The notes under the pieces were generated by a model. It searched no databases. It saw only the letters and a program-made list of their open reading frames with translations, and was not told the DNA's origin. A program made the translations under genes and the position numbers. A stretch of 64,000 bases of DNA, taken from NCBI RefSeq assembly GCF_027107535.1, contig NZ_CP114283.1:310001-374000 (forward strand). The letters are read 5' to 3'. Shown piece by piece: positions 38,338 to 57,220 of this stretch. The DNA comes from Streptomyces aurantiacus. Its GTDB lineage: Bacteria; Actinomycetota; Actinomycetes; Streptomycetales; Streptomycetaceae. Each line of letters opens with the position of its first letter. The first letter of the stretch is position 1.

Positions 38338-38511
38338 CACAACATCACAGAGTGCCTCACGAGCACGGACGGTTGCACACAGGCCTGCCGCGGCGGAGCC
38401 GACGCCCGATCCCGGCCGGAAGCCGGGATGAGAAGCTGTGCCCGAACGGGCGTACTGAAGGTGGAGGGCGATCCACCGACGAAGCCCTCCCCTACCGGAG
38501 GTACCTCTCCC

Positions 38512-39522
38512 GTGACCACAACCAACACAGCGCCGCCCAAGGTTGAGGACCGTGAGACGGACGAGCGGCAGGGCTGGCAGTTCAACTCGCCTCTCGTCCT
38601 GACCATGCTGCTCCTCGCGGGAGTCGTGCTGCAGGGCCCGATCCGCGGAGCGCTGTCGGCGCCCGTGATGCAGAGCTGGATGACCGTGTTCGTCGCGGTG
38701 ATCGTGCAGGCGCTGCCCTTCCTCGTACTCGGTGTGCTGCTGTCGGCGGTCATCGCGGTGTTCGTCCCGCCGTCGTTCTTCGCCCGCGCGCTGCCGGCCC
38801 GGCCCGCCCTCGCGGTACCGGTCGCAGGCATGGCCGGGGCGGTGCTGCCCGGGTGCGAGTGCGCGTCCGTGCCGGTGGCCGGAGCGCTGGTGCGCCGGGG
38901 TGTCACGCCCGCGGCGGCGCTGGCGTTCCTGCTGTCGGCCCCGGCGATCAACCCGATCGTGCTGACCGCGACGGCCGTCGCGTTCCCGGGCGAGCCGCGG
39001 ATGGTCCTGGCCCGTTTCGTGGCGAGCCTGCTGGTGGCCTGCGCGATGGGCTGGCTCTGGCAGCGGCTGGGCCGTGCCGACTGGTTGCGCCCACCGGCCC
39101 GCCCCTCCTCCGAGGGCCTCGGCAGAGGGGCGGCGTTCTGGGGATCCGTACGGCACGACGTGATGCACGCGGGAGGGTTCCTGGTCGTCGGCGCGATGGC
39201 CGCGGCCACGCTCAAGGCGGTGGTCCCGGCGGACTGGCTCAGCCTCGCCGCCGACAACATGGTGGTGTCGATCCTCGCCCTGGCCGTTCTGGCCGTACTC
39301 CTCTCCATCTGCTCCGAGGCGGACGCGTTCGTGGCCGCGTCCCTCACCCAGTTCTCGCTCACGGCCCGGCTGACCTTCCTGGTCGTCGGCCCGATGATCG
39401 ACCTGAAGCTCTTCGCCATGCAGACCGCCACGTTCGGCCGCGAGTTCGCCCTGCGCTTCGCGCCCGCCACGTTCACGCTGGCCGTCCTGGTGTCGTCGCT
39501 GGTAGGGGCGGTGCTCCTGTGA
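38512..39522 (+). CDS. Membrane permease (UPF0718/YraQ family)
   Basis: This 336-residue protein starts at GTG 38512, with GGAGG at 38497-38501. It has about eight helices and the family signature PGCECASVPVAGALVRRG, followed by FLLSAPAINPIVLTATAVAFPG and CSEADAFVAASL, where Cys and acidic residues could bind metal. The gene overlaps the next by 4 nt. In Bacillus a similar permease-TIGR03943 pair is under Zur control. I see no Zur-box-like palindrome before 38512, so a zinc role is a guess. Confidence 0.9.
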   Translation: MTTTNTAPPKVEDRETDERQGWQFNSPLVLTMLLLAGVVLQGPIRGALSAPVMQSWMTVFVAVIVQALPFLVLGVLLSAVIAVFVPPSFFARALPARPALAVPVAGMAGAVLPGCECASVPVAGALVRRGVTPAAALAFLLSAPAINPIVLTATAVAFPGEPRMVLARFVASLLVACAMGWLWQRLGRADWLRPPARPSSEGLGRGAAFWGSVRHDVMHAGGFLVVGAMAAATLKAVVPADWLSLAADNMVVSILALAVLAVLLSICSEADAFVAASLTQFSLTARLTFLVVGPMIDLKLFAMQTATFGREFALRFAPATFTLAVLVSSLVGAVLL

Positions 39523-40397
39523 ACCGCCAGGCACAGGCAGCCGTGCTCCTCCTCACCGGCGGAGCGATCCTGCACGTGGGCCTCACAGATCTCCATCTGC
39601 GGTACGTGAAGGCGGGGTTGCAGCCGTTGCTGCTGGCGGCGGGGGCCGTCCTGATCGCCACGGCGGTCGCGACGGTCTGGTACGAACGCAAGGACTCACG
39701 CACCCGGACGGCCCACGCCGACACGAGCGCTGCCCGGACTCCTGCTTCAGCCCTGGGCGCCGGTGACGAGGACGACAAGGGCCGCGAGGGTGACGGCGAA
39801 CCCGACCCCGCCCCCTGCCGCGACAGGGAAGACGAGCCCGCCCACGCGGAAAGGGAGGCGGAGCCCCACCTCCACCCCCATCCCCATCGCGAACCCCGTA
39901 TCGCCTGGCTGCTGGTCCTCCCGCTCCTCGCCCTGATCCTCGTCTCCCCGCCCGCTCTCGGTTCGTACAGCGCCCTGCGCGCGGGCACCGCCCTTCAGGA
40001 ACAACCGTGGGGCTTCGCCGACCTCCCCCCGGGGGACACCGTCCGCCTGAGCCTCGTCGACTACGCGGGCCGCGCGGCCTACGACCACGGCCGCTCGCTC
40101 GACGGCCGCCGCATCAAGACCGCCGGCTTCGTGGCCGTGGGCCGCGACGGCACCCCCTACCTGGTGCGTATGGCGCTCAGTTGCTGCGCCGCCGACGCCG
40201 TGCCGGTGAAAATAGGGCTGACCGGCCGGACGCCTCCCGTCCTGCAACCGGACACATGGCTGGAGGTCACCGGCACCTACACCGCGAAACGGACCAAGGA
40301 CCCGGTGAACAACGGCATCATCCCGTTCCTCGACGTCACCGCCGCGAAGCCGGTCGCGGCACCCCGGGACCCGTACGACGAGAGCTGGAACGGCTGA
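39519..40397 (+). CDS. TIGR03943 family putative permease subunit
   Basis: This 292-residue protein starts at GTG 39519, overlapping the permease stop. Two N-terminal helices are followed by a charged Asp/Glu/His linker that ends in EPHLHPHPHREPR. A third helix comes next (LLVLPLLALILVSPPALGSY), then an outer OB-like domain with a CC pair (LSCCAADAVPVKI). The His-rich stretch and CysCys suggest metal handling with the partner permease. Substrate is not known. Confidence 0.88.
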   Translation: MNRQAQAAVLLLTGGAILHVGLTDLHLRYVKAGLQPLLLAAGAVLIATAVATVWYERKDSRTRTAHADTSAARTPASALGAGDEDDKGREGDGEPDPAPCRDREDEPAHAEREAEPHLHPHPHREPRIAWLLVLPLLALILVSPPALGSYSALRAGTALQEQPWGFADLPPGDTVRLSLVDYAGRAAYDHGRSLDGRRIKTAGFVAVGRDGTPYLVRMALSCCAADAVPVKIGLTGRTPPVLQPDTWLEVTGTYTAKRTKDPVNNGIIPFLDVTAAKPVAAPRDPYDESWNG

Positions 40398-42928: not shown

Positions 42929-43025
42929 AAACAGGTGAGGCACCTACGGAAATCCGTAGGTGCCTCACCTGCTGTTGTGGCTGTCGGGGTGGCGGGATTT
43001 GAACCCACGACCTCTTCGTCCCGAA
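42929..43025. repeat. Left attachment repeat with 3' fragment of tRNA-Pro
   Basis: These 97 bp match 57092-57188 except at 42977 (G here, T at 57140). They include a 19-bp-stem hairpin (42932-42971) and the last 42 nt of tRNA-Pro (42984-43025, minus strand). The uninterrupted identical block of 48 bp (42978-43025) is the likely crossover zone. The tRNA fragment here lacks its 5' half and is not functional. Confidence 0.92.
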
Positions 43026-43567
43026 GCAACTTGGGTGGGAGCTGGGTCTTGAGCCGGTGAACCTCGGGCCTGCTCGGATGGTCCGCAGACGTTCGTGGGC
43101 GTCCGCCGTTGTGCGTCTGCGTTGTCACTCAGTTAGACACTCACCGCTCAACGGTCGATCGCCGACAGGTGCGTTGTCAGTGCTTGCGTCTATGGTCTCA
43201 GGCGCGCGGTCGGCTTCCGGGGGTTCCAGCTCTGAAGGGATGGCTTCATCCCCGGCCTGTCTGGGGGCGGCTCGGAGACTCGTCCGGGACCTAACCGACG
43301 GCCGGGCTTCGTCGATGGCCACGCGGTGACCTGCCAGCGCCGGCCGCGCACCCCTCTCGCGGGGGCGGACGCCCGCTTTCCAACTGTGGTGGTGTGGTCT
43401 TGGACTGTGTGCAGGGGCGTTCACCTGGGTTCACGGGCGGCTGGCCGCCGGTGTGGGGACGGCTCCGGGTCCCGCCTGAACGGCCGTGAACGGCGCTGAA
43501 TGAGACGGAAACTGAGACGGTCGGTGGGCCAGGCTCGCTAGCATCTTCGCTGTTGAAGGAGGGAGTC
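43026..43567. other. 542-bp element end without a supported gene
   Basis: The stretch lies between the left repeat and the first element gene. Open frames here lack coding character and ribosome-binding sites. TGAGACGG occurs twice at a 12-bp period (43501, 43513). No other structure is evident. Confidence 0.55.
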
Positions 43568-43897
43568 ATGGCACTGGTCGGCAAAGGATCGAGACGGATC
43601 GTTGTCGATGGCACGGTCTACCGCTGGCGAGTGCGGGGCCGGCCGACGTACTGCCAGGGACTGGCCTGGTCGCCGTGTGCGTTCGCGGTGGAGCATGTGA
43701 ACACTCCGGGGATGACGCTCGTGGTCATCACCGACCAGCCACATCCGAGCAACTGGATCGGCCGCGAGGCTGAGCCTGTACTGCCGTCCGGTGTCGCCGC
43801 GGCTGTTCGGCATGCCTTGCGTGAGGGTTGGACTCCGACGGCTCCGGGCTCCTCGTTCCACCTCGACCAGTCCACTGGCTTCGCGTCCTCGTCCTGA
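43568..43897 (+). CDS. Hypothetical element protein
   Basis: This 109-residue protein starts at ATG 43568 with an excellent AAGGAGGG (43556-43563). It begins MALVGKGSRRIVVDGTVYRW and is rich in beta-forming residues, with AFAVEHVNTPGMTLVVITDQ in the middle. It has no signal peptide or helix. I have a general memory of similar proteins in Streptomyces accessory regions but know no function. It stands alone, 550 bp before the Mrr-NACHT gene. Confidence 0.75.
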   Translation: MALVGKGSRRIVVDGTVYRWRVRGRPTYCQGLAWSPCAFAVEHVNTPGMTLVVITDQPHPSNWIGREAEPVLPSGVAAAVRHALREGWTPTAPGSSFHLDQSTGFASSS

Positions 43898-44446
43898 GCG
43901 GTGTAAAGAGTGAGCACCGCTTTAGGAGTTCGATCCACGCCCACTCCGGATACCAGTCATCGACTGGTGTGATGGTCCGACAGGATTGCTGGTGTGCGCC
44001 CTTGTCCGGCGTCGTTGATGTCAGTTGTGGATGTCAGAAGCTTCTGATCCGTAGCTCCGCAGAGATCAATCATTCGAGGTCACACAGGCTGCGGGGAAGG
44101 CAGGTGGGCAAGCGCGTACACCCGCGAAGCATTAGCGAACGTGAGAAGCACGGTAGGCCAGGGTCCAGTTGCACCTGGCCCGTACACAGCGCGGCGTCGC
44201 ACCGGATGCCCCTAGCCCATGGCGATCGGCGCTGTGAGCACTCACCGATGGAGTGAAGGCTTGCCGAGCGTGTAGGCCGGAGAGCATCCCGAGCTACCCG
44301 GGCGACTAGGTATGACTGATTGGCTCACTGACCAGGGGCAGCTCGTCGGGGGACACTTCGTAGCGCCTCGCAGTGAGTGCGCCGGGCGCCGGACCCAATC
44401 TACGCAAACCCGCACGGCGAGGGCGGCGGGCGTGCATAATCCCCCT
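43898..44446. other. 549-bp stretch upstream of the Mrr-NACHT gene
   Basis: No gene is supported. A small hairpin CCAGTC/GACTGG lies at about 43961-43975. CATAAT at 44435-44440 is 6 nt before the ATG at 44447, the spacing of a -10 element for a leaderless message. The base composition already drifts towards AT compared with the core. Confidence 0.5.
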
Positions 44447-47400
44447 ATGAAATTTGATCTCTACCAACTGGGCCCGCGAGAATTCGAGAACCTTGTTCAA
44501 TCAATCACTGTCGCCGAGCTAGGGCCGCGCGTATCAGTATTTGGGGCAGGGCCGGACGGTGGGAGAGAAGCAACATTCGATGGAGTCACCGTGTCACCAA
44601 AAGGTGGCGCAGTCTGGGATGGGTATGGAATTCTCCAGGTGAAGCAAAAGGCAACCCCTGCCTCACCTGCAGAGGAAGCTAACTGGCTCATTTCGGAGAT
44701 CCGTAAGGAGTTCAATGAATGGCATACGTCAAAAAAGCGTAAGCCGAAACCGAAATATGTAATCTTTGCTTCAAATGTAAAACTTTCTGCGGTGCCCAAT
44801 ACTGGTGGCTTTGATCGCGTTCAGGAGGTAATGAAAGAAGAGTGTCGCAGGCTTCATATCGAAGAGTATATGATCTGGCACTCTGAAAACCTAGATAGGT
44901 TTTTGGAGATTCACGACGGAATCCGTCGATCTTATGCAGCGTGGATTTTGCCTGGTGACGTACTGGCTTCCATCCATGAAGGGCAAGAGGGGCGCAGGGA
45001 GCAGGTAGTTACTTCCATCAAGCGATTTCTTTCTAGAGAAATTCTACGAGAAAGGTTCGCAAATCTGGACCAAGCTGGGTCGGCGGACGACCGCACCATC
45101 CCTCTGGCGGACGTCTTCGTCGATCTACCCATCAGTGTTGCAGACGATTTCCAATCCGATGACGAAGCAAAGTGCCTGGAAACACTAATTTCTATTTGCG
45201 ACACGAACCATCGCCCGGATGAAAAACAGAATGAGGCTCCGATTCATCAGGCCAATCGTTTTGTATTGGTCGGCGGGCCGGGGCAGGGCAAGAGTACTGT
45301 AAGTCAGCTCCTTTGCCAGCTTTATCGAGCACTCCTGATTAAAGACACGCAACTGTATTCACGGAACGCAGAGATTCGGACTGCTGTAAACAGGATCACA
45401 GCCCTAGCTGACCGCGAATCCCTGTCGCCGAAAGCTCGTCGATGGCCGCTAAAGATTCCGCTGACTAGCTTGGCGGATGGCATCGCTAAGGGGCATTTCA
45501 GTAGCATTCTAGAGTATGCGGCTTATCGAGTTTCGGCGGTAAGCGCGATCAACGTAACGTCAAGTGAACTAAAGAATTGGCTAGCAGACTTCCCTTGGTT
45601 GCTCATCCTCGACGGCCTTGATGAGGTTCCAGGATCGAGCAATCGAGATGAGGTACTCAACTGCGTCAATGATTTCCTACTCGACGCCGATGAAGTAAAT
45701 GCCGATCTTGTTGTTGTTGCGACTACAAGGCCGCAAGGGTATGCCGAAGAATTTTCCCCAATGCACTACCGGCACTACTCGTTGATGCCGCTTGATAGCG
45801 AAAACGCCCTTACATATGGCCATAAACTAGCTCAGGCAAGATACGGGTCGGCTGCGGATGATAAAGTTGATCGCTTGATGGATCGGCTGCGGCAAGCTGT
45901 TGCAGAAGATTCCACAGCCCATCTCATGACAACTCCTCTTCAGGTCACCATCATGGCTGTACTGCTCGACAGGATGGGTAAAGCGCCGAAGGATAGGTTC
46001 ACTCTCTTCGCTGATTATTACCGAGTCATTTATGAGCGGGAGCTTGAAAAAGAGGGGCCAGCGAGTAACCTGCTACGTGACAGGCGGGCAGATATCAATT
46101 CAATTCACGCTGATATTGGCTTGTTACTTCAGACGAAAAGCGAGAGGAGCGGTGACACGGCATCGCGCCTTACTCTTGAAGAGCTCAACATGATCATCGC
46201 CGACCGACTAAAGGGCGAGGGTTTTAAGGGTGATTCTCTAAACTCGCTGACAGCCGCGATCAGTCGAGCGGCGACCGATCGTCTGGTTTTCCTTGTACCG
46301 TCGCGCAGAGACGAGGTAAGTTTCGAGATCCGCTCGCTTCAGGAGTTCTGGGCAGCGCATGCCATAATGAACTGCTTTGAAGCGGAAATCCCGAAGCGCC
46401 TCAGAGCAATGTCCGTAAGCGCTCACTGGCGTAACGTACTACTCTTTGCGCTCGGCAACATCTTCGAGAACCGGAAGCCATTGCGCGATGTGGTTGTTAC
46501 TCTCGTGACTGAGCTCAACGCTGCCTCGGATCATTACGGACACTTGCAAAGGCGAGTTCTGACAGGGTCTCGACTGGCAGTGGAGATTCTGCGAGACGGC
46601 ATGGTCAGAGCCCCTCGTTACGAAGCTATGCTTCTAGAGCAGGCACTTAAGGTCCTTCACCTTCCGCCCAACAGCCACGTGTCGCTGCTGGCAGCCTCCA
46701 TTAGCGCGGATGGTATGGAAGTAGCACGTGACTTCTTGCAGCCGGAGCTCTGCAAGAGTGGGATCCCTAGCGAGTCCATCCTGATCTTTCTGGGCGTTCG
46801 TGCCGGCCATGAAGATCGGTGGGCTGGCGAAGTGCTGCGTGAAATCTACGGGAGAAGCACAGAGCGCGACCGCAGAAGCCTCGTCAACATTGCTGAAGAC
46901 GCCGAAAATTTGACGCTCACGGCCTGGGTTACGGCGAGCGCGACCGAGCCTAAGAACACCATCGACACCGTGCGGACAATTCGGATGGTTACGGCAAGCA
47001 GGCGCGCGATGGCGGATCCGTCTAGGGCTCGACGTGGACTGCCCGCTTCTGGTGGCTTATTCGAATTCCCCGAATGGGCAATGCCTCTCTCTCAAGCTTT
47101 CTATAGTGCAATCGGGCGCCCGACAACCAGATTGAAAATTGATACGCCAAGTCTTGGCTTGCAACTCCTTGTAAATTCGTGTCATGCAGTTAATTCACGA
47201 GCCCGGGAGACTATGGAATTGGGCTTCCCAGAGGAGCACTGGTTCGCAAAGATTCATCGATTTGCAGAGGATCCTAGCAAGGACACTCTGGCCGAAGTGG
47301 TTCGTGTCGAAGGCCCGGATCTGGATCAGTACATGTTGCACGCAGCAAGATTTCCATGGGTGATCCTCTATGCATTTGGATTGCGTGAGGAAGTTGGGGA

Positions 47401-48349
47401 CAGTGCAGCGGACCTGATCCGATCTGGATACATGGGTGATCTTTCGGACTGGCACTCATTGGAAGAAGCTTGGGATCGAGATGATCTGCAGGATCTGGCT
47501 CAATCAAATTTTCAGTCCTGGCGTGAAGACCGAGAGCCATTCTTTCCATTTGAGGCATCGAACTTCAGCGTAGCTGCATACGACTCTGGCGTCTGGAATT
47601 CGACTGACCTTTCCCTGCTCCTCGACATTGCAGAGTCCATTCAGGATCTGAGATCGCGCCGAAAATTGGCGAACGCAATCGTGAATATGCCGGTGCGGCA
47701 TAGTGCTCGTTTCAGGATCGACATCTCTAGGCCTATGTTTGAAAGGATCTTGGACTGCTTTCCTGATGGGCAGTCACGGTTTTTGTCGTGGCTAGATGCT
47801 CTGGGCGCTGACGAAGGCTGGGCAGACCTCCTGAACATCCAGGGACAAGGCTTACGACCAGGTTTCGTTTGGATCCCGCGATGTCCAGAATTCGTGGTGG
47901 ATTGTTGGGTCGCGGATTTCAGCAAGGTAGGACTCGGACGCATGGCTTTGTCGAGGCCCTCATTTTCGCCTATTCATCAGCGAAATGCTCTCCTCATAAA
48001 GGCTGAGTGGGAGCGTGTTAAGTGTGATCCCACGTCCGACTTTGTGAGCAAGTGCCTCGTCGCTTTGGCGGTTCTGGCTATGGATCCGCCTCATGAGCGA
48101 GACGACAGAGGGCTGTTGTTGCAAGTGCTGAGGCAAGGCATCGGCGAGAAAGAGTTTTCGCTTCATCAGGTGCTCTCTCTGATGAAGGTTGGACAGGAAC
48201 CCAGCGACTACTCCTTCGTCGTTGACCTTATCGACTCGGCAAGGGACTTGCCGAGGACCGATGATCTTCGTTTCGCATACGACTTTCTCCTGAGTTATCA
48301 GGCTAGTCATTGGACTGAGATCTCATTCAATGAGATGCGCCCTGTCTGA
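44447..48349 (+). CDS. Mrr-like nuclease fused to NACHT/STAND NTPase, candidate antiviral protein
   Basis: The protein has 1300 residues. Residues 1-150 resemble the Mrr/PD-(D/E)xK fold: GAGPDGGREATFDG with Asp37 and Glu41, then GILQVKQK with Gln64 and Lys66. The NTPase has Walker A GGPGQGKS (276-283) and a Walker B/NACHT motif LDGLDEVPG (388-396). About 700 residues follow without a recognised domain and may be the sensor. This nuclease-NTPase-sensor order is that of Avs antiviral proteins, in which target recognition causes oligomerisation and nucleic-acid degradation. The gene is AT-richer than all neighbours and has TTA codons at 46124 and 47057. ATG 44447 is chosen because the protein fold starts there and CATAAT is 6 nt upstream. 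It could instead be a fused restriction-like factor. Confidence 0.85.
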   Translation: MKFDLYQLGPREFENLVQSITVAELGPRVSVFGAGPDGGREATFDGVTVSPKGGAVWDGYGILQVKQKATPASPAEEANWLISEIRKEFNEWHTSKKRKPKPKYVIFASNVKLSAVPNTGGFDRVQEVMKEECRRLHIEEYMIWHSENLDRFLEIHDGIRRSYAAWILPGDVLASIHEGQEGRREQVVTSIKRFLSREILRERFANLDQAGSADDRTIPLADVFVDLPISVADDFQSDDEAKCLETLISICDTNHRPDEKQNEAPIHQANRFVLVGGPGQGKSTVSQLLCQLYRALLIKDTQLYSRNAEIRTAVNRITALADRESLSPKARRWPLKIPLTSLADGIAKGHFSSILEYAAYRVSAVSAINVTSSELKNWLADFPWLLILDGLDEVPGSSNRDEVLNCVNDFLLDADEVNADLVVVATTRPQGYAEEFSPMHYRHYSLMPLDSENALTYGHKLAQARYGSAADDKVDRLMDRLRQAVAEDSTAHLMTTPLQVTIMAVLLDRMGKAPKDRFTLFADYYRVIYERELEKEGPASNLLRDRRADINSIHADIGLLLQTKSERSGDTASRLTLEELNMIIADRLKGEGFKGDSLNSLTAAISRAATDRLVFLVPSRRDEVSFEIRSLQEFWAAHAIMNCFEAEIPKRLRAMSVSAHWRNVLLFALGNIFENRKPLRDVVVTLVTELNAASDHYGHLQRRVLTGSRLAVEILRDGMVRAPRYEAMLLEQALKVLHLPPNSHVSLLAASISADGMEVARDFLQPELCKSGIPSESILIFLGVRAGHEDRWAGEVLREIYGRSTERDRRSLVNIAEDAENLTLTAWVTASATEPKNTIDTVRTIRMVTASRRAMADPSRARRGLPASGGLFEFPEWAMPLSQAFYSAIGRPTTRLKIDTPSLGLQLLVNSCHAVNSRARETMELGFPEEHWFAKIHRFAEDPSKDTLAEVVRVEGPDLDQYMLHAARFPWVILYAFGLREEVGDSAADLIRSGYMGDLSDWHSLEEAWDRDDLQDLAQSNFQSWREDREPFFPFEASNFSVAAYDSGVWNSTDLSLLLDIAESIQDLRSRRKLANAIVNMPVRHSARFRIDISRPMFERILDCFPDGQSRFLSWLDALGADEGWADLLNIQGQGLRPGFVWIPRCPEFVVDCWVADFSKVGLGRMALSRPSFSPIHQRNALLIKAEWERVKCDPTSDFVSKCLVALAVLAMDPPHERDDRGLLLQVLRQGIGEKEFSLHQVLSLMKVGQEPSDYSFVVDLIDSARDLPRTDDLRFAYDFLLSYQASHWTEISFNEMRPV

Positions 48350-48421
48350 GCGGGATGAATGAGCCTTAGTTCATGAGTATTTTGAATCCCTGAGATATGA
48401 AGCAGGGGAGAGAAACGGTGA

Positions 48422-48589
48422 GGTCGGCGGAGCGGCTTTGGGCTGGAGCTGCTTTGGCGCGAGTGATCATGGCCCCGTAAGCTTCCGGCGCGTCGGGCAG
48501 TCTGTGGACCTGCCCGGTAAAGCACGACGTTGGGGCCATGATCTTCGAGGCTCGCGCCAAAGTGGCTGCGTAAAGCCGCGGAGCCGACC
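48422..48589. repeat. 168-bp nested inverted repeat, structured non-coding element
   Basis: Complementary blocks pair in order from outside in: GGTCGGC with GCCGACC (48422-48428/48583-48589), GCGGCTTT with AAAGCCGC (48432-48439/48572-48579), CTTTGGCGCGAG with its complement (48452-48463/48551-48562), GATCATGGCCCC with its complement (48465-48476/48532-48543), and CGGGCAG with CTGCCCG at the tip (48494-48500/48510-48516). It could be a single-strand replication origin of the rolling-circle element, a structured RNA or a MITE-like insertion. The sequence does not decide. Confidence 0.8.
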
Positions 48590-48641
48590 GCCCCAGCCAC
48601 GACGAACCCCTTCTTTGGCATAGGGCGGCTGAATGCTCAGT

Positions 48642-48716
48642 GCGCGGCCCGGCCCCCGGCCGGGCTGGAGCGGGGCGGAGACAGGAGCGCAGGCCCGGCC
48701 GGGGGCCGGGCCGCGC
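48642..48716. terminator. 24-bp perfect GC hairpin between convergent genes
   Basis: The 24 bases at 48642-48665 (starting GCGCGGCCCGGCCCCC) are the exact reverse complement of 48693-48716, with a 27-nt loop. The hairpin lies between the convergent Mrr-NACHT gene and the gene ending at 48764, so a bidirectional terminator is likely. The long loop and the neighbouring structure leave other roles possible. Confidence 0.6.
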
Positions 48717-48763
48717 GCGGGGAGCGGAGCGAGCCGCCTTGAACCAGTAGAGAAAGTTGTAAC

Positions 48764-49147
48764 TCAGTAGGTCTGCTGGGGCTTGAAGTCGTATGCGCAG
48801 GATGGCAGTTCGATGCCCTGTCTGTGCGCGAGGGGCAGGAAGACGACTGGGCGTATCGTCCAAGTGATGCGGGTGCCGGCGTGGGTCACTGAGACTGTGC
48901 AGGGCTGCATCCGTAAGAGCGCTCGGCGGGTCTGAATGCGGCCCTCGTACAGCCACCCCCAAGCCTCGTCGGATGCGTCGGCATCGAGTGCCGGTGAGAT
49001 CGTGCGGAGAGCTACCGCTACCCACCTGTCGGCCTGCGGGGCTGAGTGCGCATCGAAGGATGCTCGGAGCTCTGGCGCCCCTCCCTCCGTGAGGTCTTCC
49101 GTCCAGCACTCACACCAGTAGCCCCACTGCGGCTTGTCCATCAGCAT
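48764..49147 (-). CDS. Hypothetical element protein
   Basis: This 127-residue protein starts at ATG 49147 (or 49141, MDKPQ). It begins MLMDKPQWGYWCECWTEDLT and is rich in Trp, with no membrane helix. It overlaps the end of the anti-sigma-like ATPase gene, so the two are probably co-translated. I do not recognise a family. Confidence 0.7.
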   Translation of the reverse strand: MLMDKPQWGYWCECWTEDLTEGGAPELRASFDAHSAPQADRWVAVALRTISPALDADASDEAWGWLYEGRIQTRRALLRMQPCTVSVTHAGTRITWTIRPVVFLPLAHRQGIELPSCAYDFKPQQTY

Positions 49148-49569
49148 GGGTGGCCCCCTGGGCGGACCTCGGTAAAGAGTTCCGCGGTGACCGTGTGGCC
49201 GCCGTCGCTGTCGTGGATCACGACCCGGTGCGCGATCGCGCTGACCATGCCCAGTCCCCGGCCGTGTTCCGCCTCCTGGTCCTGGTGCTCGACCTTGGGG
49301 GCCTCACCGGTGCCTCCGTCATCGGTGACCGACAGGGTGATCATCTGCGGTGAGATCGCGAGAGCCAGATGGAAGCTGCCCGACTGCCGGCCGCTGGCGG
49401 TGTGGAGGATCGCGTTCGCGCTCAGCTCGCTCACGATCACTGCGGCGTCGTCGGCCAGTGGCGAGCCTCTGAGGATGTCCCGTGTCCAGCGGCGGGCCCT
49501 GCTGACCTCTTCGGGGAATCCTGGGCAAGTGAGTCCCCAGACCCGGGCGGTGCTCGTATACTCGTGCAT
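49141..49569 (-). CDS. ATP-binding anti-sigma-like protein (HATPase_c, RsbW type)
   Basis: This 142-residue protein starts at ATG 49569, where GAAGGAA lies about 6 nt upstream. Other in-frame ATGs at 49599 and 49686 lack sites. The GHKL fold shows the N box VSELSANAILHTA, the G1 motif VTDDGGTG and GRGLGMVSAIAH. Relatives in Streptomyces phosphorylate anti-anti-sigma factors or bind sigma factors. No partner gene is near, so it may act on host proteins. A CTCGTATACTCGT stretch (49553-49565), like half of the KorSA-type operator, lies at its start codon. Confidence 0.85.
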   Translation of the reverse strand: MHEYTSTARVWGLTCPGFPEEVSRARRWTRDILRGSPLADDAAVIVSELSANAILHTASGRQSGSFHLALAISPQMITLSVTDDGGTGEAPKVEHQDQEAEHGRGLGMVSAIAHRVVIHDSDGGHTVTAELFTEVRPGGHPC

Positions 49570-49615
49570 ACAAGTTCCTTCGTGCTGGTAGGCCGCCATG
49601 TGCAGCGGGTTCGGG

Positions 49616-50047
49616 CTAGACGAGTTTGACGCCGTCGTGTGCGCGGACGGCTGGCGGGGACAACGCGTCGAGAGCGTCCAGGACACGGATCGCGTACGCC
49701 TCGTCGGCGAGGTCGGTGACTTGTTCGCGGGTGGCCCATCGCAGTGCGCGGGTCTCGTCCCCGGTGGTGGGTGTGCCGTCGGCGGCCTCGCAGCGGAAGA
49801 CCATGGAGACGATCAGGCCCGTCATGTTCTTGTAGATCCCGGTGAGGGTCGCGGGAAGTGCGATCTTGATGCCGGTCTCTTCGAGGACTTCCCTCTGAAG
49901 CGCCTCGGGGAGGGTTTCCTCCGGCTCGACGATGCCGCCCGGGGGCTCCCACTGGCCGTTGTCGCGCCGCTGGATCAAGAGGGCTCGGCCCTGGTCGTCG
50001 ATGATGACTCCGGCAACGCTCACGGAGTGCGGACGGTCAGCGGTCAC
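49616..50047 (-). CDS. Nudix hydrolase, Pif-like
   Basis: This 143-residue protein starts at GTG 50047. The full Nudix box runs from Gly38 to Ile60 (GIVEPEETLPEALQREVLEE core), so metal binding and phosphohydrolase activity are expected. In pSAM2 the immunity factor Pif, which blocks redundant transfer between element-bearing cells, has a Nudix motif and lies next to korSA. The same position here, divergent from the GntR gene, supports a Pif role. The substrate is unknown. Confidence 0.85.
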   Translation of the reverse strand: MTADRPHSVSVAGVIIDDQGRALLIQRRDNGQWEPPGGIVEPEETLPEALQREVLEETGIKIALPATLTGIYKNMTGLIVSMVFRCEAADGTPTTGDETRALRWATREQVTDLADEAYAIRVLDALDALSPPAVRAHDGVKLV

Positions 50048-50102
50048 GTTCCTCGGCCCTCTCAGATCGCTAGGCTCTCAACCGTAGCAACAACACTCGC
50101 CC

Positions 50103-50132
50103 ACTCGTCTAGATACCTAAAGGAGTACTCGT
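50103..50132. promoter_or_regulatory. KorSA-type operator half-sites at the repressor's own promoter
   Basis: ACTCGTCTAGAT at 50103-50114 matches the left half of the palindromes found at 50967 and 51042. ACTCGT recurs at 50127-50132, overlapping the GTG start of the repressor. The site lies in the divergent region with the Nudix gene, so one protein could control both. Confidence 0.55.
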
Positions 50133-50916
50133 GACCTCTCTACCGTCCCTGCTCGGTGGCCTGGATCCAACGAGCGATCGTGCGGTGTTCCGGCAGATCG
50201 CCGACCAGCTGCGCGAGGCCATCGATCGTGGGCGATTCAACGAAGGGGAGAAGCTGCCTTCGGAAGCTGAGCTTGTCGAGCACTATGGCGTGTCCCGGAT
50301 GACCGTCCGCAACTCCTTCTCCGTCCTCCAGGGCGAGGGCCTGGTGCACGCAGAGCACGGGAAGGGAGTGTTCGTCCGGCCGCGACCGCCTGTGCGGCGG
50401 CTCGCCTCCGACCGGTTCGCCAGGCGTCATCGTGAACAGGGGAAGTCCGCGTTCATCGTCGAAGCGGACGCCGCCGGCAGTCACCCGAAGGTGGACAGCC
50501 TGGAGGTCAAGGAGGAGAAGGCCACGCAGGACATCTCCGCCCGGCTCGGGTCCGTACGACGCGTGCTCGCCCGGCGGCGCCGGTACCTCCTCGACGGCCG
50601 TCCGGTCGAGTTCGCCACCTCCTACCTTCCCCTCGACATCGCCCGCGGTACGCAGATCGCCGAACCCAACCCCGGCCCCGGCGGCATCTACGCCCGCCTT
50701 GAGGAACTGGGCCACCGACTCGACCACTTCGAGGAAGAGATCCGAGCTCGGATGCCCTCGCCGACCGAGGTCAAGACACTGCACCTCGCCTCGGGCGTCC
50801 CGGTGATCCACCTCATCCGAACCGCGTACGACACCGAAAAGCGGCCTGTAGAGGTCTGCGACACCGTCATGGCGGCGGACGCGTACGTGCTGTCGTACCA
50901 GCTTCCGGCCACGTAA
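50131..50916 (+). CDS. GntR/UTRA family repressor, KorSA-like
   Basis: This 261-residue protein starts at GTG 50131 with AAAGGAG at 50119-50125. The winged helix (about 20-85) contains IADQLREAIDRGRFNEGEKL and YGVSRMTVRNSFSVL. The UTRA effector domain spans about 105-255. In pSAM2 KorSA represses pra and so replication, excision and transfer. Here palindromes with ACTCGT arms lie before this gene and before the gene at 51073, which fits auto-repression and control of the transfer operon. Confidence 0.88.
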   Translation: MTSLPSLLGGLDPTSDRAVFRQIADQLREAIDRGRFNEGEKLPSEAELVEHYGVSRMTVRNSFSVLQGEGLVHAEHGKGVFVRPRPPVRRLASDRFARRHREQGKSAFIVEADAAGSHPKVDSLEVKEEKATQDISARLGSVRRVLARRRRYLLDGRPVEFATSYLPLDIARGTQIAEPNPGPGGIYARLEELGHRLDHFEEEIRARMPSPTEVKTLHLASGVPVIHLIRTAYDTEKRPVEVCDTVMAADAYVLSYQLPAT

Positions 50917-51072: not shown

Positions 51073-51429
51073 TTGCGCACCATCCGTGTGGAGACCTCGG
51101 CCGCGACGATCCTGCTGACTGAGGCACCCGAGCCCAAGGTCCGCGACCGGCAGACCGGCGAGATCGCCAAGGACGTCAACAGCGGCGAGGCACTGATGAC
51201 GATCGGCGTCGTCTACATCGAGGAAGGGGAGTCGGCCCTGATCAAGGTCACCATCCCGGAGAGCGGAGTCTCTGAAGGACTGGCGCTGGGAGCTCCGGTC
51301 GCGCTGCCCGGCCTGGTGGCCCGGCCGTGGGAGAGCGTGTTCAACGGACAGCAGCGCCACGGCATCGCCTACCGCGCCGCAGCCGTCACTCCGGCCGCCT
51401 TCCCGGCCGCCATGGGGGCCACGGCCTGA
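51073..51429 (+). CDS. SCO3933 family regulatory protein
   Basis: This 118-residue protein starts at TTG 51073 after AGGAAGAA. It begins MRTIRVETSAATILLTEAPE when the start is read as Met, and contains RDRQTGEIAKDVNSGEALMT. This family is found next to the transfer gene in many AICEs, with no certain function; replication or transfer control has been proposed. It overlaps the FtsK-like gene by one base (TGATG). It is directly preceded by two operator palindromes. Confidence 0.85.
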   Translation: MRTIRVETSAATILLTEAPEPKVRDRQTGEIAKDVNSGEALMTIGVVYIEEGESALIKVTIPESGVSEGLALGAPVALPGLVARPWESVFNGQQRHGIAYRAAAVTPAAFPAAMGATA

Positions 51430-52805
51430 TGACCGACCTGGCAACGCTTCTGGAGGTGGGTGGTCCCGTCGCCGCACTCGGCGGTGGGGCCGCCTACGCC
51501 CGGGCCCAACACCCCGGCGTCTACTGGTCCGCGGTCGGGCTGCCGCTCTCCACGGCGCGGCTGCTCAGCTCGTACAGCTCGGTCATGGAAGCCTGCGGCC
51601 TGACAGTCGCCCCTTCCAGGCTGCGGGTCCTGGCGGTCAAGGCCACCACTCGGCGAGAGGTCCGGCCCGTTCCGCCGCGTCGGGGCATCATCCGGCCCAC
51701 CTCGACCGGGCTTCGGCTCCGTCTGCGGCTCGCCCCGGGACAGGAACCTGCCGACGTCGCCGCCTCGGCCGAACGGCTCCGGCACGCCTGGGGCGTCCAC
51801 GCCGTGTACGTGACGACGGTCAAGCCCGGTGTCGTCGAACTGCGGCTCGTCGGCTTCGACGTGCTGCGCAAGGTCCGCATGCCGCGCAAGTCCCCGACCG
51901 GGCCCCTGCGAATACCGGTCGCGCTACGGGAAGACGCCACGCCCTTTGTACGCGACTACCGGACCGTTCCCCACCAACTGACCCTCGGCGCCACGCTGTC
52001 GGGCAAGTCCATGTACCTGCGCCATCTCGTCGCCGGACTCGCCCGGCAGCCCGTCGCTCTGGTCGGCATCGACTGCAAGCGCGGTGTGGAACTGGCCCCC
52101 TTCGCCGCCCGGCTCTCGGCGCTTGCCACCGACCCCGAGCAGGCCGCCGAACTTCTGCCCGTGCTCATCAAGGAAATGGAGGACCGCTACGACCTGATCA
52201 AGGCCCGGCAGGGCATCGCGTCGGGTACGCCGGACGAGGAGATCACCTCCGACATCTGGGGCCTGCCCGAGGACGAACGGCCCGTGCCCGTCGTGCTCTT
52301 CGTCGACGAGGTGGCCGAACTCTTTCTCGTCGCCACGCGCAAGGACGAGGAACGGCGGGACGAGATGGTCACCCAGCTCATCCGCCTCGCCCAGCTCGGC
52401 CGCGCCGCTGGGATCTACCTGGAGGTCTGCGGACAGCGCTTCGGCGCCGAACTGGGCAAGGGCGCAACCATGCTGCGGGCCCAGCTCACCGGACGTGTCT
52501 GCCACCGCGTCAACGACGAAGCCTCCGCCAAAATGGCACTCGGCGACATCGCCTCCGAAGCGGTCTCCGCCGCCTGCGCCATCGCTCCCGAACGGCCCGG
52601 CCTCGCCGTCGCCGGTGACACCTCCGGCGGCTGGTCCCGCATCCGCACTCCCTACCTCTCCCTCGGCGACGCCGCCGACATCTGCCACGAGTCGGCCGAC
52701 CTGGTCCCCGACCTGCCCGCGCTTAAGCCCTTCCGGCCCGCTGTGCCCGTACGGCCGGTCGAGTCCCCGGCCCCGGTCCTGCAGCCGCGACCCGTGACCG
52801 ACTGA
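51429..52805 (+). CDS. FtsK/SpoIIIE-like conjugal transfer protein, TraSA type
   Basis: This 458-residue protein starts at ATG 51429. The ATPase domain has Walker A GATLSGKS (187-194) and Walker B VVLFVDEVAELF near residue 295. TraB/TraSA proteins move double-stranded plasmid DNA between mycelial cells as hexamers and recognise short repeats in a clt locus. I could not find an obvious clt repeat. No membrane helix is strong except possibly near the N terminus, and the length is close to the pSAM2 protein. Confidence 0.93.
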   Translation: MTDLATLLEVGGPVAALGGGAAYARAQHPGVYWSAVGLPLSTARLLSSYSSVMEACGLTVAPSRLRVLAVKATTRREVRPVPPRRGIIRPTSTGLRLRLRLAPGQEPADVAASAERLRHAWGVHAVYVTTVKPGVVELRLVGFDVLRKVRMPRKSPTGPLRIPVALREDATPFVRDYRTVPHQLTLGATLSGKSMYLRHLVAGLARQPVALVGIDCKRGVELAPFAARLSALATDPEQAAELLPVLIKEMEDRYDLIKARQGIASGTPDEEITSDIWGLPEDERPVPVVLFVDEVAELFLVATRKDEERRDEMVTQLIRLAQLGRAAGIYLEVCGQRFGAELGKGATMLRAQLTGRVCHRVNDEASAKMALGDIASEAVSAACAIAPERPGLAVAGDTSGGWSRIRTPYLSLGDAADICHESADLVPDLPALKPFRPAVPVRPVESPAPVLQPRPVTD

Positions 52806-52898: not shown

Positions 52899-53546
52899 GT
52901 GCGCGCCCTACTGGCCCGCGTCGACGCGGTGCTCGTCCAAGCGGTCATCGCCGCCGCGCTGTCCTTCGCCCACCTGCACGACATCGCCCTTGCGGCCGGT
53001 CAGGACGGGTGGAAGGCGTGGGCGTACCCCGTATCGGTCGACCTGCTGCTCGTCGCCGCCTGGCGCCAACTGCGGACCGGCGACGCCAAAGCGTCCGGGT
53101 GGTGCTGGTTCGTCATCGCTCTGACGGCGTCGCTCGGGGCCAACGTCGCCACCGCCGGGCTGCTCGACCTCGACGACGTGCCGGCCTGGCTGCGCATCCT
53201 CGTCGCAGGCTGGCCCGCGGTCGCCTTCCTCGGCGGAACGCTCCTTGCGCACTCTGTGCCGAAAGCGGCTGAGGACGTGGACAGCGCCGCAGAGGACGCG
53301 GACCAGGTGGACGACACCGAATTCGCCCCTGAGCCGCCCGCACTACCGGCCGCAGATCCGGCACCCGTTCAGACGGCCGCGTCCGCTCCGCCTGCCGTAT
53401 CCGTTCCGGCCGCCCTGGTCGAGCACGCCCGCAAGGTCGCTGCCGAGCACCACACCCGTACCGGAGCAGCCATCGACACCCCCACCCTCCGCGCTCGCCT
53501 CGGCGTCCCCGCACCCATGGCCGAAGCCATCTCCGCCCAGATCTGA
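52899..53546 (+). CDS. DUF2637 membrane protein, Spd-like
   Basis: This 215-residue protein starts at GTG 52899 with GGAAGGAG at 52885-52892. Four helices (about 8-28, 42-58, 66-88, 95-115) form the DUF2637 part, including WAYPVSVDLLLVAAWRQLR. A Pro/Ala linker and a short helical C-terminal domain (ALVEHARKVAAEHHTRTG) follow. Such proteins are common in AICE transfer operons and are thought to help plasmid spread within the mycelium. Confidence 0.88.
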   Translation: MRALLARVDAVLVQAVIAAALSFAHLHDIALAAGQDGWKAWAYPVSVDLLLVAAWRQLRTGDAKASGWCWFVIALTASLGANVATAGLLDLDDVPAWLRILVAGWPAVAFLGGTLLAHSVPKAAEDVDSAAEDADQVDDTEFAPEPPALPAADPAPVQTAASAPPAVSVPAALVEHARKVAAEHHTRTGAAIDTPTLRARLGVPAPMAEAISAQI

Positions 53547-53568
53547 CCAGCCCAGGAAGGAGATTCGC

Positions 53569-53760
53569 ATGACCGCCAACCGCCGCTTCCGCTCCGTCAC
53601 CCGCATCGGCCCCGTCCAGGTCGGCACGGCCTACGACGGTCGCGGCCGTGAGAAGCACACCGCCGCGTGTACCGCACCTCGCTGCGGCTTCTCCGCCGAC
53701 TACGACAGCCGTGCCGCCGCCGAACTCGCCGCCCGTACCCACCGCTGCCCCGCCCGCTGA
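53569..53760 (+). CDS. Small mobile element transfer protein
   Basis: This 63-residue protein starts at ATG 53569 with AAGGAG at 53557-53562. It contains CTAPRCGF and a late His-Cys pair (THRCPA), so a small zinc-binding knuckle is possible. Proteins of this size and sequence recur in the spd region of AICEs. It overlaps nothing and is followed 15 bp later by the next spd gene. Confidence 0.82.
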   Translation: MTANRRFRSVTRIGPVQVGTAYDGRGREKHTAACTAPRCGFSADYDSRAAAELAARTHRCPAR

Positions 53761-54406: not shown

Positions 54407-55726
54407 ATGCCCGGCCTCCTGCGCCAGCTCTCCGGCCTCGGCGGCTGCACCCGGCCGATCCGCCTCGACGGCCACCGCGCCGAGTACGACGTGAACACCC
54501 GTACCGGCGAGATAGGCACCCTCCTCCACCGTCTCGACTCCGCCGGCCTCCCGGCCGGTCACCTCCTGGTCCGCTGCAACAACCGCCGCACCACCCGCTG
54601 CGCGGCCTGCTCGGAGGTCTACCGCCGCGACACCTTCCACCTGATCACGTCCGGCCTACGCGGCGGCAAGGGCGTCCCCGAACGAGTCGCCGCTCACCCG
54701 CGTGTCTTCGCCACCTTCACCGCCCCGGGCTTCGGCCCCGTCCACAACCGCCCCACCGGTTCCGCCGGTTCGGTCCGCCGCTGCCGGTGCGGCGTCCTCC
54801 ACGACCAGGACGACGACGTACTCGGCACCCCGCTCGACCCGGACACCTACGACTACGAAGCAGCCGTGCTCTGGAACGCGCACGCCGGTCCTCTGTGGCG
54901 ACGCTTCTCGACCTACCTGCGCCGGGAAGTCGCCAAGAGGGCCGGACTCTCACAGCGTGAGTTCCGCGAATACGCCCGGGTGTCCTTCGCCAAGGTCGCT
55001 GAGTACCAGAAGCGCGGGGCCGTTCACTTCCACGCGGTCATCCGCATCGACGGCCCCGAGGGCGGCGACACTCCGCCTCCGGCCTGGGCCACCGCCGAGC
55101 TGCTCACCGACGCCATCCGCGCCGCCGCAACCGGAGCCCGTGTGGACGGCCCATCCATCGACGGCCGCGCGCACGTCTTCGCCTTCGGGCGGCAACTCGA
55201 CGTACGTACCATCCGCGGCGCCGACTTCGACGGCGGCCAGGAGCTGACCGACCGGGCCGTCGCCGCGTACATCGCCAAGTACGCCACCAAGGGCGCCGAA
55301 GCGGCCACGGGAGCTCTCGACCGCCCGCTCAAGTTCCTCGCCGAACTGGCCCAACTCGACATCAGCGACCATGCCCGGCGCCTGGTGCGTACCGCCTGGA
55401 CCCTCGGCGCCCGCAAGGACCTCGAAGAACTCCGGCTCCGGGCCTGGGCCCACATGCTCGGCTTCCGGGGCCACTTCTCCACCAAGTCACGCCGGTACTC
55501 CACCACCCTCGGTGCCCTCCGCACGGCCCGCTCCGAATGGCGCGCAGCCCAAGGTGCATCGGCCACTGACGGCCTGACCACTTCCGAAATTTCGGAGGTG
55601 GTCGAGACGACCCTCGTCCTCGCCCACTGGGTCTACGCCGGAACCGGCCTCACCGACGCCGAAGCCTGGCTTGCCGAAACCCTCGCACCCGCCCCCGGAA
55701 CCGAAGGAGAACCGACTCATGCGTGA
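54407..55726 (+). CDS. Rolling-circle replication initiator, RepSA-like
   Basis: From ATG 54407 the protein has 439 residues. It has a Cys-rich zone near the N terminus (CNNRRTTRCAACSEVY), the HUH-like motif GAVHFHAVIRID, and a later YIAKYATKGAE with candidate catalytic Tyr. These match the RepSA/Rep_3-like initiator of pSAM2. No ribosome-binding site precedes 54407. The same frame is open upstream, and AAGGAG (54332-54337) sits 6 nt before ATC 54344, so a non-standard ATC start giving 460 residues is possible. The 3' end overlaps the excisionase gene. Confidence 0.88.
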   Translation: MPGLLRQLSGLGGCTRPIRLDGHRAEYDVNTRTGEIGTLLHRLDSAGLPAGHLLVRCNNRRTTRCAACSEVYRRDTFHLITSGLRGGKGVPERVAAHPRVFATFTAPGFGPVHNRPTGSAGSVRRCRCGVLHDQDDDVLGTPLDPDTYDYEAAVLWNAHAGPLWRRFSTYLRREVAKRAGLSQREFREYARVSFAKVAEYQKRGAVHFHAVIRIDGPEGGDTPPPAWATAELLTDAIRAAATGARVDGPSIDGRAHVFAFGRQLDVRTIRGADFDGGQELTDRAVAAYIAKYATKGAEAATGALDRPLKFLAELAQLDISDHARRLVRTAWTLGARKDLEELRLRAWAHMLGFRGHFSTKSRRYSTTLGALRTARSEWRAAQGASATDGLTTSEISEVVETTLVLAHWVYAGTGLTDAEAWLAETLAPAPGTEGEPTHA

Positions 55727-55901
55727 TGACGAGCTGTTGACCGTGGCTGATGTCATGGCTCGCCTGAAGGTGGGGCGGTCGACGGTCTACGACCTGATCC
55801 GCACGCGGCGTCTGCCATCTGTCGCCATTGGACGGTGTCGGCGCATTCCTGCGGCCGCGCTCGGAGACTTCATCACTGCTCAGATGGAGCGTGCCGCCTG
55901 A
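55719..55901 (+). CDS. Excisionase-like helix-turn-helix protein (Xis)
   Basis: This 60-residue protein starts at ATG 55719, overlapping the end of rep by 8 nt, with GAAGGAGA upstream. It is a MerR-like/AlpA-type DNA-binding fold: LTVADVMARLKVGRSTVYDLI and RRLPSVAIGRCRRIP. Xis proteins of this kind sit between rep and int in AICEs and direct excision. The gene overlaps int by one base (TGATG). Confidence 0.92.
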   Translation: MRDDELLTVADVMARLKVGRSTVYDLIRTRRLPSVAIGRCRRIPAAALGDFITAQMERAA

Positions 55902-57067
55902 TGACCAAGCGTCGTAGCCGTGGTGACGGCGGCCTGCACTGGGACGAGAAAAGGCAACGGTGGATCGCCACGGCGAACCTCGGCTTCGATCCCAGCGGCA
56001 AACGCATCGTTCGGCGGGGGAGTGGCAAGACCAAGACGGAGGCGAAGAACAAGCTCAAGGAGGTGTTGCGGGACTACGAAGACGGCCTCGCCATCGCCCC
56101 TACGAACTACACCGTTGCCGACGCGGTGAACGACTGGCTCGCTTACGGCTTGGCGGGCCGTGACGAGCGCACGGTCGAGACCGTCACCGGGCTGAGCCGG
56201 ATTCACGTGATCCCAAGCCTGGGAGCGCGCAAGCTGCGTGATCTAAGCGCTGAGGACGTTGACCGCTGGCTGGCGGTGAAGGCTCGTACGCTCAGTACGC
56301 GCACCTTGCAGGGATTGCACTCCTGCCTCAACCGCTCGGTCAAGCGGGCCATGGCGCGGGACAAGGTGAAGCGCAACGTCGTCGAGCTGTGCGCAGTTCC
56401 GGCCGGCCGTCCGGGTCGCCCGTCCAAGGCGCTCACCCTGGTCCAGGCGGAGGCTGTGCTCAAGGCGGCTGAGGGAACCTCGATGTACGCGTACATCGTC
56501 CTCGCCCTGTTGACCGGCGCCCGCACAGAGGAACTGCGCGCGCTGACCTGGGATCACGTGTTCCTCAAGGGCAGGCCGAACGCCAATCCGCCACAGCCTC
56601 CGCACATCGCTGTGTGGCGGTCGGTTCGACGTGGTGGGGACACCAAGACACGGAAGTCCCGGCGCACGCTCGCTCTTCCTGCACGCTGCGTAGAGGTCCT
56701 GTGGGCCCAGTTCGAGGATCAGGGGTGGGAACGTCTCGCAGCTGGTGACGACTGGGAGGAGCATGGGCTGGTCTTCTCCTCGACCGTCGGCAAGCCGCTG
56801 GACGCGACCAACGTCCGTCGTGCCTTCCGGGCGGCGCTCAAGGGGGCCAAGGGGATCGACGCGGACGAGTGGACGCCTCGGGAGCTCCGGCACAGCTTCG
56901 TCTCGCTGCTCTCGGACAGCGGCGTCCCCCTGGAAGAGATCTCCCGCCTCGTCGGTCACTCCGGCACCGCTGTGACCGAGGAGGTGTACCGCAAGCAGAT
57001 TCGCCCTGTGATCCAGACCGGCGCCGTGGTCATGGACGGCATCTTCAAGCGAGTCCCAGAGCGGTAG
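55901..57067 (+). CDS. Tyrosine site-specific integrase
   Basis: This 388-residue protein starts at ATG 55901. It has an N-terminal arm-binding domain, then an SAM-like core-binding domain (about 65-150). The catalytic domain has Arg208 in TGARTEELRAL, the segment PRELRHSFVSLL (the usual first His is Arg here), VGHSG and the nucleophile Tyr in VTEEVYRKQI. It ends 25 bp before the right repeat and inserts into tRNA-Pro. Length and order are normal, so it is probably active. Confidence 0.95.
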   Translation: MTKRRSRGDGGLHWDEKRQRWIATANLGFDPSGKRIVRRGSGKTKTEAKNKLKEVLRDYEDGLAIAPTNYTVADAVNDWLAYGLAGRDERTVETVTGLSRIHVIPSLGARKLRDLSAEDVDRWLAVKARTLSTRTLQGLHSCLNRSVKRAMARDKVKRNVVELCAVPAGRPGRPSKALTLVQAEAVLKAAEGTSMYAYIVLALLTGARTEELRALTWDHVFLKGRPNANPPQPPHIAVWRSVRRGGDTKTRKSRRTLALPARCVEVLWAQFEDQGWERLAAGDDWEEHGLVFSSTVGKPLDATNVRRAFRAALKGAKGIDADEWTPRELRHSFVSLLSDSGVPLEEISRLVGHSGTAVTEEVYRKQIRPVIQTGAVVMDGIFKRVPER

Positions 57068-57091: not shown

Positions 57092-57188
57092 AAACAGGTG
57101 AGGCACCTACGGAAATCCGTAGGTGCCTCACCTGCTGTTTTGGCTGTCGGGGTGGCGGGATTTGAACCCACGACCTCTTCGTCCCGAA
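57092..57188. repeat. Right attachment repeat
   Basis: This copy matches 42929-43025 with a single mismatch (57140). Here the 3' 42 nt of tRNA-Pro (57147-57188) complete an intact tRNA gene, so integration did not destroy it. The 48-bp perfect block is 57141-57188, ending in the anticodon loop. Confidence 0.92.
57095..57134 (-). terminator. tRNA-Pro terminator with 19-bp stem
   Basis: The 19 bases at 57095-57113 (starting CAGGTGAGGCACC) pair perfectly with 57116-57134 across AA. On the minus strand TTTG follows. It lies 12 bp after the tRNA 3' end. An identical hairpin stands at 42932-42971 in the left repeat. Confidence 0.85.
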
Positions 57189-57220
57189 CGAAGCGCGCTG
57201 CCAAGCTGCGCTACACCCCG
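57147..57220 (-). tRNA. tRNA-Pro(CGG)
   Basis: The minus strand folds as a standard tRNA: acceptor CGGGGTG/CACCCCG, D arm GCGC...GCGC, anticodon stem CTTCG/CGAAG with loop TTCGGGA (anticodon CGG), and T arm GTGGG TTCAAAT CCCGC. The discriminator base is A and CCA is not encoded. Its 3' half is the integration site of the element. Confidence 0.95.

Follow-up and report, generated by a model that had tools for sequence, protein, structure and literature searches.

Which function would a conjugative element of Streptomyces gain by carrying a single gene of 1,300 codons, and why is that gene placed where related elements carry something else? The question is raised by a window of 64,000 nucleotides from Streptomyces aurantiacus (contig NZ_CP114283.1, positions 310,001 to 374,000), the whole stretch of DNA analysed here. 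Its gene at 44447..48349 on the forward strand, delimited from the open reading frame list, an alignment of relatives and substitution rates, encodes a predicted nuclease-NACHT protein of 1,300 aa and is the large cargo gene of an actinomycete integrative and conjugative element (AICE). An earlier note, made from the letters alone, had read it as an Mrr-NACHT fusion and a candidate single-gene antiviral STAND system. The product is probably a single-gene immune receptor resembling the NOD-like receptors (NLRs). Several computed properties speak for this: the order of the domains, intact catalytic and Walker residues, an NLR-like predicted NTPase fold, purifying selection, a faster-evolving C-terminus, the lack of a conserved partner gene, and a swap slot that holds defence-type genes in sister elements.

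Domains of the predicted nuclease-NACHT protein

Residues 1-180 (44447..44986, forward strand) form a domain that alignments, a predicted model and a profile match place among Mrr-like PD-(D/E)xK nucleases, with D37, E41 and Q64-x-K66 as its putative active site. D37, Q64 and K66 are kept in 30/30 aligned N-terminal domains. A cross-phylum set numbers 22 members, 21 of them with letters at these positions; D37 and K66 are present in 21/21, position 41 is E or D in 21/21, and Q64 is found in 20/21. The Pfam scan of the protein reported no nuclease family for the N-terminus. The PADLOC model PDC-S73 matches residues 2-194 (E 3.6e-7), and a profile of 21 N-terminal domains matches one of 18 Mrr_cat domains with E 2.3e-6 and 89% probability, lining up the acidic motif and the Q-x-K; the C-terminal region, used as a negative control against the same Mrr profile, reaches 0.1% probability. 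A PD-(D/E)xK fold has an expected order of helices and strands, and the predicted model of the domain fits it (the fold-match lists leave this domain aside). These comparisons support the prediction of an Mrr-like nuclease.

The domain appears to be a movable effector, since it also heads proteins of another build, L036 (1,546 aa) and L087 (1,588 aa; L numbers denote loci and G numbers genomes), both with NB-ARC and TPR repeats. Similar N-terminal domains occur on 1,544-1,588-aa proteins at L036:3681-8318, L087:7491-12254, L040:4366-9000 and L041:3747-8381; the domain scan that found NB-ARC and TPR repeats covered L036 and L087. A further body type of 798-949 aa bears the domain at L037:5264-8110, L038 and L039. 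Two of these three were scanned: one matched KAP NTPase weakly, and the other matched nothing.

The central NACHT module, together with its helical and winged-helix continuation, spans about residues 183-720 (44993..46606, forward strand), as judged from the predicted model, a fold match and a profile match. From the translation and the family alignment, its Walker A motif, GGPGQGKST, lies at residues 276-284 (45272..45298, forward strand) and its Walker B motif, LLILDGLDE, at residues 385-393 (45599..45625, forward strand). The Pfam NACHT score of the protein itself is weak (E 0.09). Relatives at L045, L081 and L088 score 2e-7 to 5e-5 for the same model, and the family profile matches a Pfam-positive NACHT at E 3.8e-10. 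The predicted fold of the NTPase part matches NOD2, NLRC4 and NLRP3, and the fold-matched module extends to about residue 720-760. The profile and the predicted model thus support a NACHT/NLR-type NTPase. The canonical winged-helix histidine position (residue 628, window 46328-46330) is occupied by I, V or L in 22/22 family members.

Residues 721-1300 (46607..48346, forward strand), a putative sensor, are mostly helical in the predicted model and, according to substitution rates, evolve faster than the rest of the protein from about residue 800. Pfam lists no TPR family for this C-terminus, and the comparisons support its description as a region matching no known domain.

The open frame containing the gene spans 44312-48349 on the forward strand. 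The ATG at 44447 is most likely the start, because relatives align from that residue on and a CATNNT element lies just upstream. This -10-like element (cataat, 44435..44440, forward strand) stands 6 nt 5' of the start codon and was recognised in a comparison of 18 upstream rows. The same spacing (7 nt in one case) is seen in the window and six full-length-type relatives; the element is present in 10/18 rows, including L037-L039, and missing from eight more distant ones. Its spacing suggests, as an inference, a leaderless transcript.

The gene is also far from a chance reading frame, as its low ratio of nonsynonymous to synonymous substitution (dN/dS), its homologues in many genomes and its distinct guanine-plus-cytosine (GC) content attest. 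Against a 72% identical relative, dN/dS is about 0.04-0.10, taken only from segments with estimable dS, where dS is high (1.2-3.2). The GC content is 0.51-0.56, as against mostly 0.65-0.75 in the rest of the region, and the host genome holds a single match to the gene.

Most of what the earlier note had said of the protein withstood these comparisons: the start at 44447, the positions of Asp37, Glu41, Gln64 and Lys66, the Mrr-like reading, and the NACHT-type NTPase with its two Walker motifs. Its estimate of about 700 further residues without a known domain was right in that the C-terminus is unrecognised. The length is nearer 550 residues, because the fold-matched module reaches about 720-760.

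A scattered family without a conserved partner gene

Matches to the protein occur in 42/392 genomes of the genus, 36/249 of the family and 7/396 of the phylum, the own genome being included each time and many matches being partial. Besides the window's protein there are five full-length relatives in these genomes (G104, G513, G252, G544 and G573), with 42-72% identity in the alignment. A contig scan turned up 113 relatives; 80 loci were retained, and a frame of 1,295-1,367 aa is present in 15 of the best 21. Records with long relatives include Methylomonas, Desulfopila, Riflebacteria, Phycisphaerales, Acidobacteria, alpha-proteobacteria, Arthrobacter, Paenibacillus, Desmonostoc and others. Matches also occur in 29 plasmid records, though in each the match spans less than 80% of the query. 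The conjugative plasmid NZ_CP044049.1 of Klebsiella variicola (L273:2417-9951) has a relative in a frame of 1,320 aa; a Lit-family phage exclusion gene lies 2.6 kb away, separated from it by an IS110 transposase and a GFA-family gene. A search of phage records and IMG/VR found no relative.

Across 32 family loci, no neighbouring gene is common to more than two, except the GntR gene of the element, which makes a single-gene system most likely. In Kitasatospora sp. SUK 42 (L093:9905-13799) a family member lies in two frames, the engine half separate from the C-terminal half, as if a frame change had disrupted it, or possibly as a split form.

The element and its cargo slot

The gene lies on a pSAM2-like AICE, identified as such because flanking repeats at a tRNA gene enclose an integrase, RepSA, an FtsK-type protein and SpdB. 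A repeat search found the left attachment (att) repeat of 97 nt at 42929..43025, 99% identical to the right copy with 48 nt exact. The right repeat (57092..57188) overlaps the 3' end of the integration site, a called tRNA-Pro(CGG) gene on the reverse strand (57146..57220). Domain scans assign the genes in the 14,163 bp between the repeats, all on the forward strand: a GntR-UTRA regulator (50131..50916), an FtsK/SpoIIIE-family, TraB-like DNA transfer protein (51327..52805), a DUF2637 protein (52899..53546), an open frame with the mobile element transfer protein SpdB as its C-terminal part (53245..53760), a RepSA replication initiator of pSAM2 type (54407..55726, E 8.5e-151) and a tyrosine integrase (55835..57067). 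Among 29 tRNA-Pro loci in other genomes, a related integrase flanks the same tRNA-Pro in seven, one by a short match only, and no clean empty integration site was found in these relatives.

At the place of the nuclease-NACHT gene, the AICEs at L045 and L046 carry a different nuclease-NACHT protein, 24% identical to that of the window, while their GntR, FtsK/TraB, DUF2637, SpdB and RepSA are 74-95% identical and orf49046 and orf49598 are 58-73% identical to the window's. The GntR-TraB DNA was therefore searched for in 392 genomes. Upstream sequence was compared for 40 of the 46 best rows outside the own genome; G123, G281, G062, G248 and G235, where the contig start is too near, and G352, for which no reason is recorded, were left out. 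L242 and L249 are cut by contig ends, leaving 38 evaluable elements of the 40.

The comparison delimits a cargo slot at about 44130..48400, with a sharp right border and a left border that is not sharp. The window's DNA from 44129 to 48328 is matched by 0/40 sister AICEs (bin means 0.0). To the right, the bin means rise to 7 of 40 at 48329-48478, 20 at 48479-48628, 34 at 48629-48778 and 37-40 from 48779. Because this rise is completed over 48329-48779, the conserved backbone stops about 0.4 kb or less from the stop codon of the window's gene. On the left the border is blurred, since the stretch beside the left repeat (42929-44128) is itself poorly conserved, with bin means of 0.4-10.6 of 40. 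Mean GC content falls from 0.70 at 8-9 kb upstream of GntR to 0.59 at 2-4 kb and is 0.66 at the backbone (36-40 elements per bin).

Open frames in the slot were picked by a home-made rule on length and third-position GC, and were called low in GC at 0.61 or less between -7,000 and -1,400 of GntR. By this rule 34/38 evaluable elements contain such a frame of 180 aa or longer, 54 frames in total. At E 1e-4 these proteins share little: L241 and L245 are near-identical, three pairs are distantly similar, L265 resembles the window protein, and otherwise no similarity appears. A Pfam scan covered 40 of these 54 frames, and 21 matched at E <= 0.001, ten being counted as clear defence and 11 not. The latter comprise a helix-turn-helix protein (L240), Fic (L251), AAA_21 (L252), AlbA_2 with HATPase (L255), a caspase (L258), a kinase (L259), a type IV secretion coupling protein (L260), DUF6602 (L261), endonuclease VII (L262), AAA_16 (L263) and HD-CE with HATPase (L268).

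Judged by family names, clear defence-type families occupy 11/38 slots: ABC-3C (L236), a STAND protein with TPR (L239; nSTAND3 below the cut-off), SIR2-nSTAND5 (L243), type ISP restriction (L246), GmrSD (L250), Mrr-NACHT (L254), TIR (L256), nuclease-NACHT (L265), Thoeris ThsA (L271), and AbiTii in L241 and, through 96% identity and an AbiTii scan, in L245. PADLOC, run on 53/54 frames, matched 159 families, and the 25 listed include ThsA, AbiTii, LmuB, DzbB, TIR-TM, type IIG and type II restriction enzymes, PD-T4-6 and several candidates. Genome-wide background was counted for two of the slot families: AbiTii occurs in 8/150 Streptomyces genomes and ThsA_Macro in 17/150. Since only 8/150 genomes carry AbiTii, its presence in 2/38 slots is far above a random draw of genes, even if the two represent one event. 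That sister AICEs fill the same slot with other genes, defence genes among them, supports the antiviral reading of the window's gene over and above its architecture.

Several low-GC slot proteins at the same AICE position have no Pfam match at E 0.001 (L234:2356-3948, L235:3316-4752, L238:5129-7720 and L267:4623-6107, among L233-L272), and each is a candidate new defence system. Between slot and GntR, the conserved backbone at window 48764-50134 holds overlapping open frames on both strands. Elsewhere in the own genome (G000:C2:218029-219682) a second stretch resembles the TraB-like gene with 82% DNA identity and possibly belongs to a second AICE. Outside the element, to its left, open frames at window 36799-40394 encode a predicted permease (ArsP_1) and a C-terminal DUF1980 domain.

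Proposed mode of action and known systems

By analogy with proteins of the same architecture, the resting state would be one in which the NACHT module keeps the Mrr-like N-terminal nuclease switched off. The divergent helical C-terminus would sense a protein made by the invader or a change that infection causes in the host. Nucleotide exchange would then lead to oligomerisation, bringing the nuclease domains together to cut DNA, and infection would be stopped or the cell killed, protecting the population and the element. Activation by infection, oligomerisation, cleavage of DNA and phage as the target are all inferred from such proteins.

The same receptor may have another target, guarding the AICE against competing conjugative elements or plasmids for the benefit of the element rather than against phage. 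The gene rides as cargo on a conjugative element, and it is precisely this stretch that differs among the sister elements; partial relatives lie on the 29 plasmid records, and the restriction-type cargo in the slot (L246 and L250) would also act on plasmids. Against this stand AbiTii and Thoeris ThsA among the slot genes, both anti-phage families. In addition, characterised proteins of the same architecture are described as responding to phage (PMC12169576), and a plasmid target appears rather unlikely.

Much less probable is an addiction or stability module, in which loss of the element would trigger the nuclease, the gene thereby serving to retain the AICE and not to protect the cell; toxin-antitoxin pairs in AICE cargo have been read as addiction systems (PMC9513070). 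Family loci, however, have no common neighbour except an element gene, and a protein of 1,300 aa whose C-terminus evolves fast is unlike such a module. A regulator of transcription or development with a vestigial nuclease motif could draw on the missing Pfam nuclease family and on the large STAND-type regulators that Streptomyces possesses, but is just as hard to credit given the catalytic residues kept in all 30 N-terminal domains and across phyla, domain scans of the protein that list no DNA-binding regulator domain, and a patchy distribution that includes plasmids.

For the immune receptor itself, the earlier note's claims of AICE cargo and of a single-gene system are borne out by the 97-nt repeat with its integrase, RepSA, FtsK-type protein and SpdB, and by the 32 loci without a conserved partner. 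Its antiviral STAND reading gains support from the architecture and the shared slot, the response to infection being argued by analogy. A broader proposal joins two parts, and there is about as much reason to accept it as to doubt it. The first part is a distinct, phylum-spanning family of nuclease-NACHT receptors of about 1,300 aa, without the canonical winged-helix histidine and with a hypervariable helical sensor. The second is a widespread Streptomyces AICE backbone whose fixed slot, beside regulator and transfer genes, is reloaded with successive immune systems, making AICEs interchangeable defence vehicles and the unannotated low-GC slot genes a catalogue of undiscovered systems. If true, NLR-like nuclease receptors would extend to a large unnamed bacterial family, and one route of immune-gene exchange among Streptomyces, by small conjugative elements, would be explained. 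The slot, with its one sharp border, would offer a handle for discovery, since AbiTii, ThsA, GmrSD, SIR2-STAND and TIR take the position that many unannotated low-GC genes take in other elements. It is the slot that raises the interest of the finding.

Parts of this picture have precedents. The AICE shares RepSA, the FtsK/TraB-like protein, SpdB, GntR and an integrase at tRNA-Pro with pSAM2-like elements and differs by its immune-receptor-like cargo. AICE cargo is described as including restriction-modification and AIPR abortive infection genes (PMC9513070), diDNase genes are reported in AICEs and near defence systems (PMC11706625), and actinobacterial defence systems and mobile elements have been treated generally (PMC10482375). 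STAND proteins with exchangeable TIR, SIR2 or Mrr_cat effectors are described from P4 satellite hotspots (PMC9122126). Neither a fixed defence slot in AICEs nor the family of the window protein was found described in the literature consulted, which comprised passages of the papers cited here and otherwise titles and the openings of abstracts.

At the level of domains, Mrr-type PD-(D/E)xK nucleases (Mrr_cat) share the profile match and the aligned acidic motif and Q-x-K, but the N-terminal domain is too diverged for the Pfam model. The PDC-S73 model has 752 positions, and its best stretch with the window protein covers positions 3-171 only. The AVAST order of a nuclease followed by a STAND NTPase, as in Avs4 (AVAST type 4; PDB 8dgf), is found in the window protein as an Mrr-like domain followed by NACHT. 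AVAST proteins have a TPR sensor that binds terminase or portal; the Pfam scan listed no TPR family in the C-terminus of the window protein. Up to E 1, neither phmmer nor the family profile matched any chain that the PDB names Avs, although the PDB has Avs3 and Avs4 chains. PADLOC includes AVAST models, and none is among the matches of the window protein up to E 10; a fold overlay on Avs4 is too loose to count. Avs1-4 are described as acting through nucleases that cut host and phage DNA (PMC12931631). The comparisons support a protein that would work like a nuclease-NACHT or nuclease-Avs receptor but whose sequence shows no resemblance to the PDB's Avs chains.

Nearest in kind are bNACHT25 and bNACHT32 of clade 6, described as a PD-(D/E)XK nuclease, NACHT and NCH1; the nuclease-dead D48A abolishes defence, infection sets off DNA degradation, and DnaJ is required (PMC12169576). 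Clade 6 is described with NCH1 at the C-terminus; a Pfam scan of the window protein to E 10 listed no NCH or NNH family (the library contains NCH2, PF22727), the comparison with bNACHT25 being by description only. The earlier note had called the system undescribed, which holds for the sequence family and not for the kind, PD-(D/E)XK-NACHT single-gene systems being already characterised in bNACHT25 and bNACHT32. Like these, the window protein combines in a single gene an N-terminal PD-(D/E)XK nuclease, here predicted, a central NACHT and a C-terminal region (PMC12169576).

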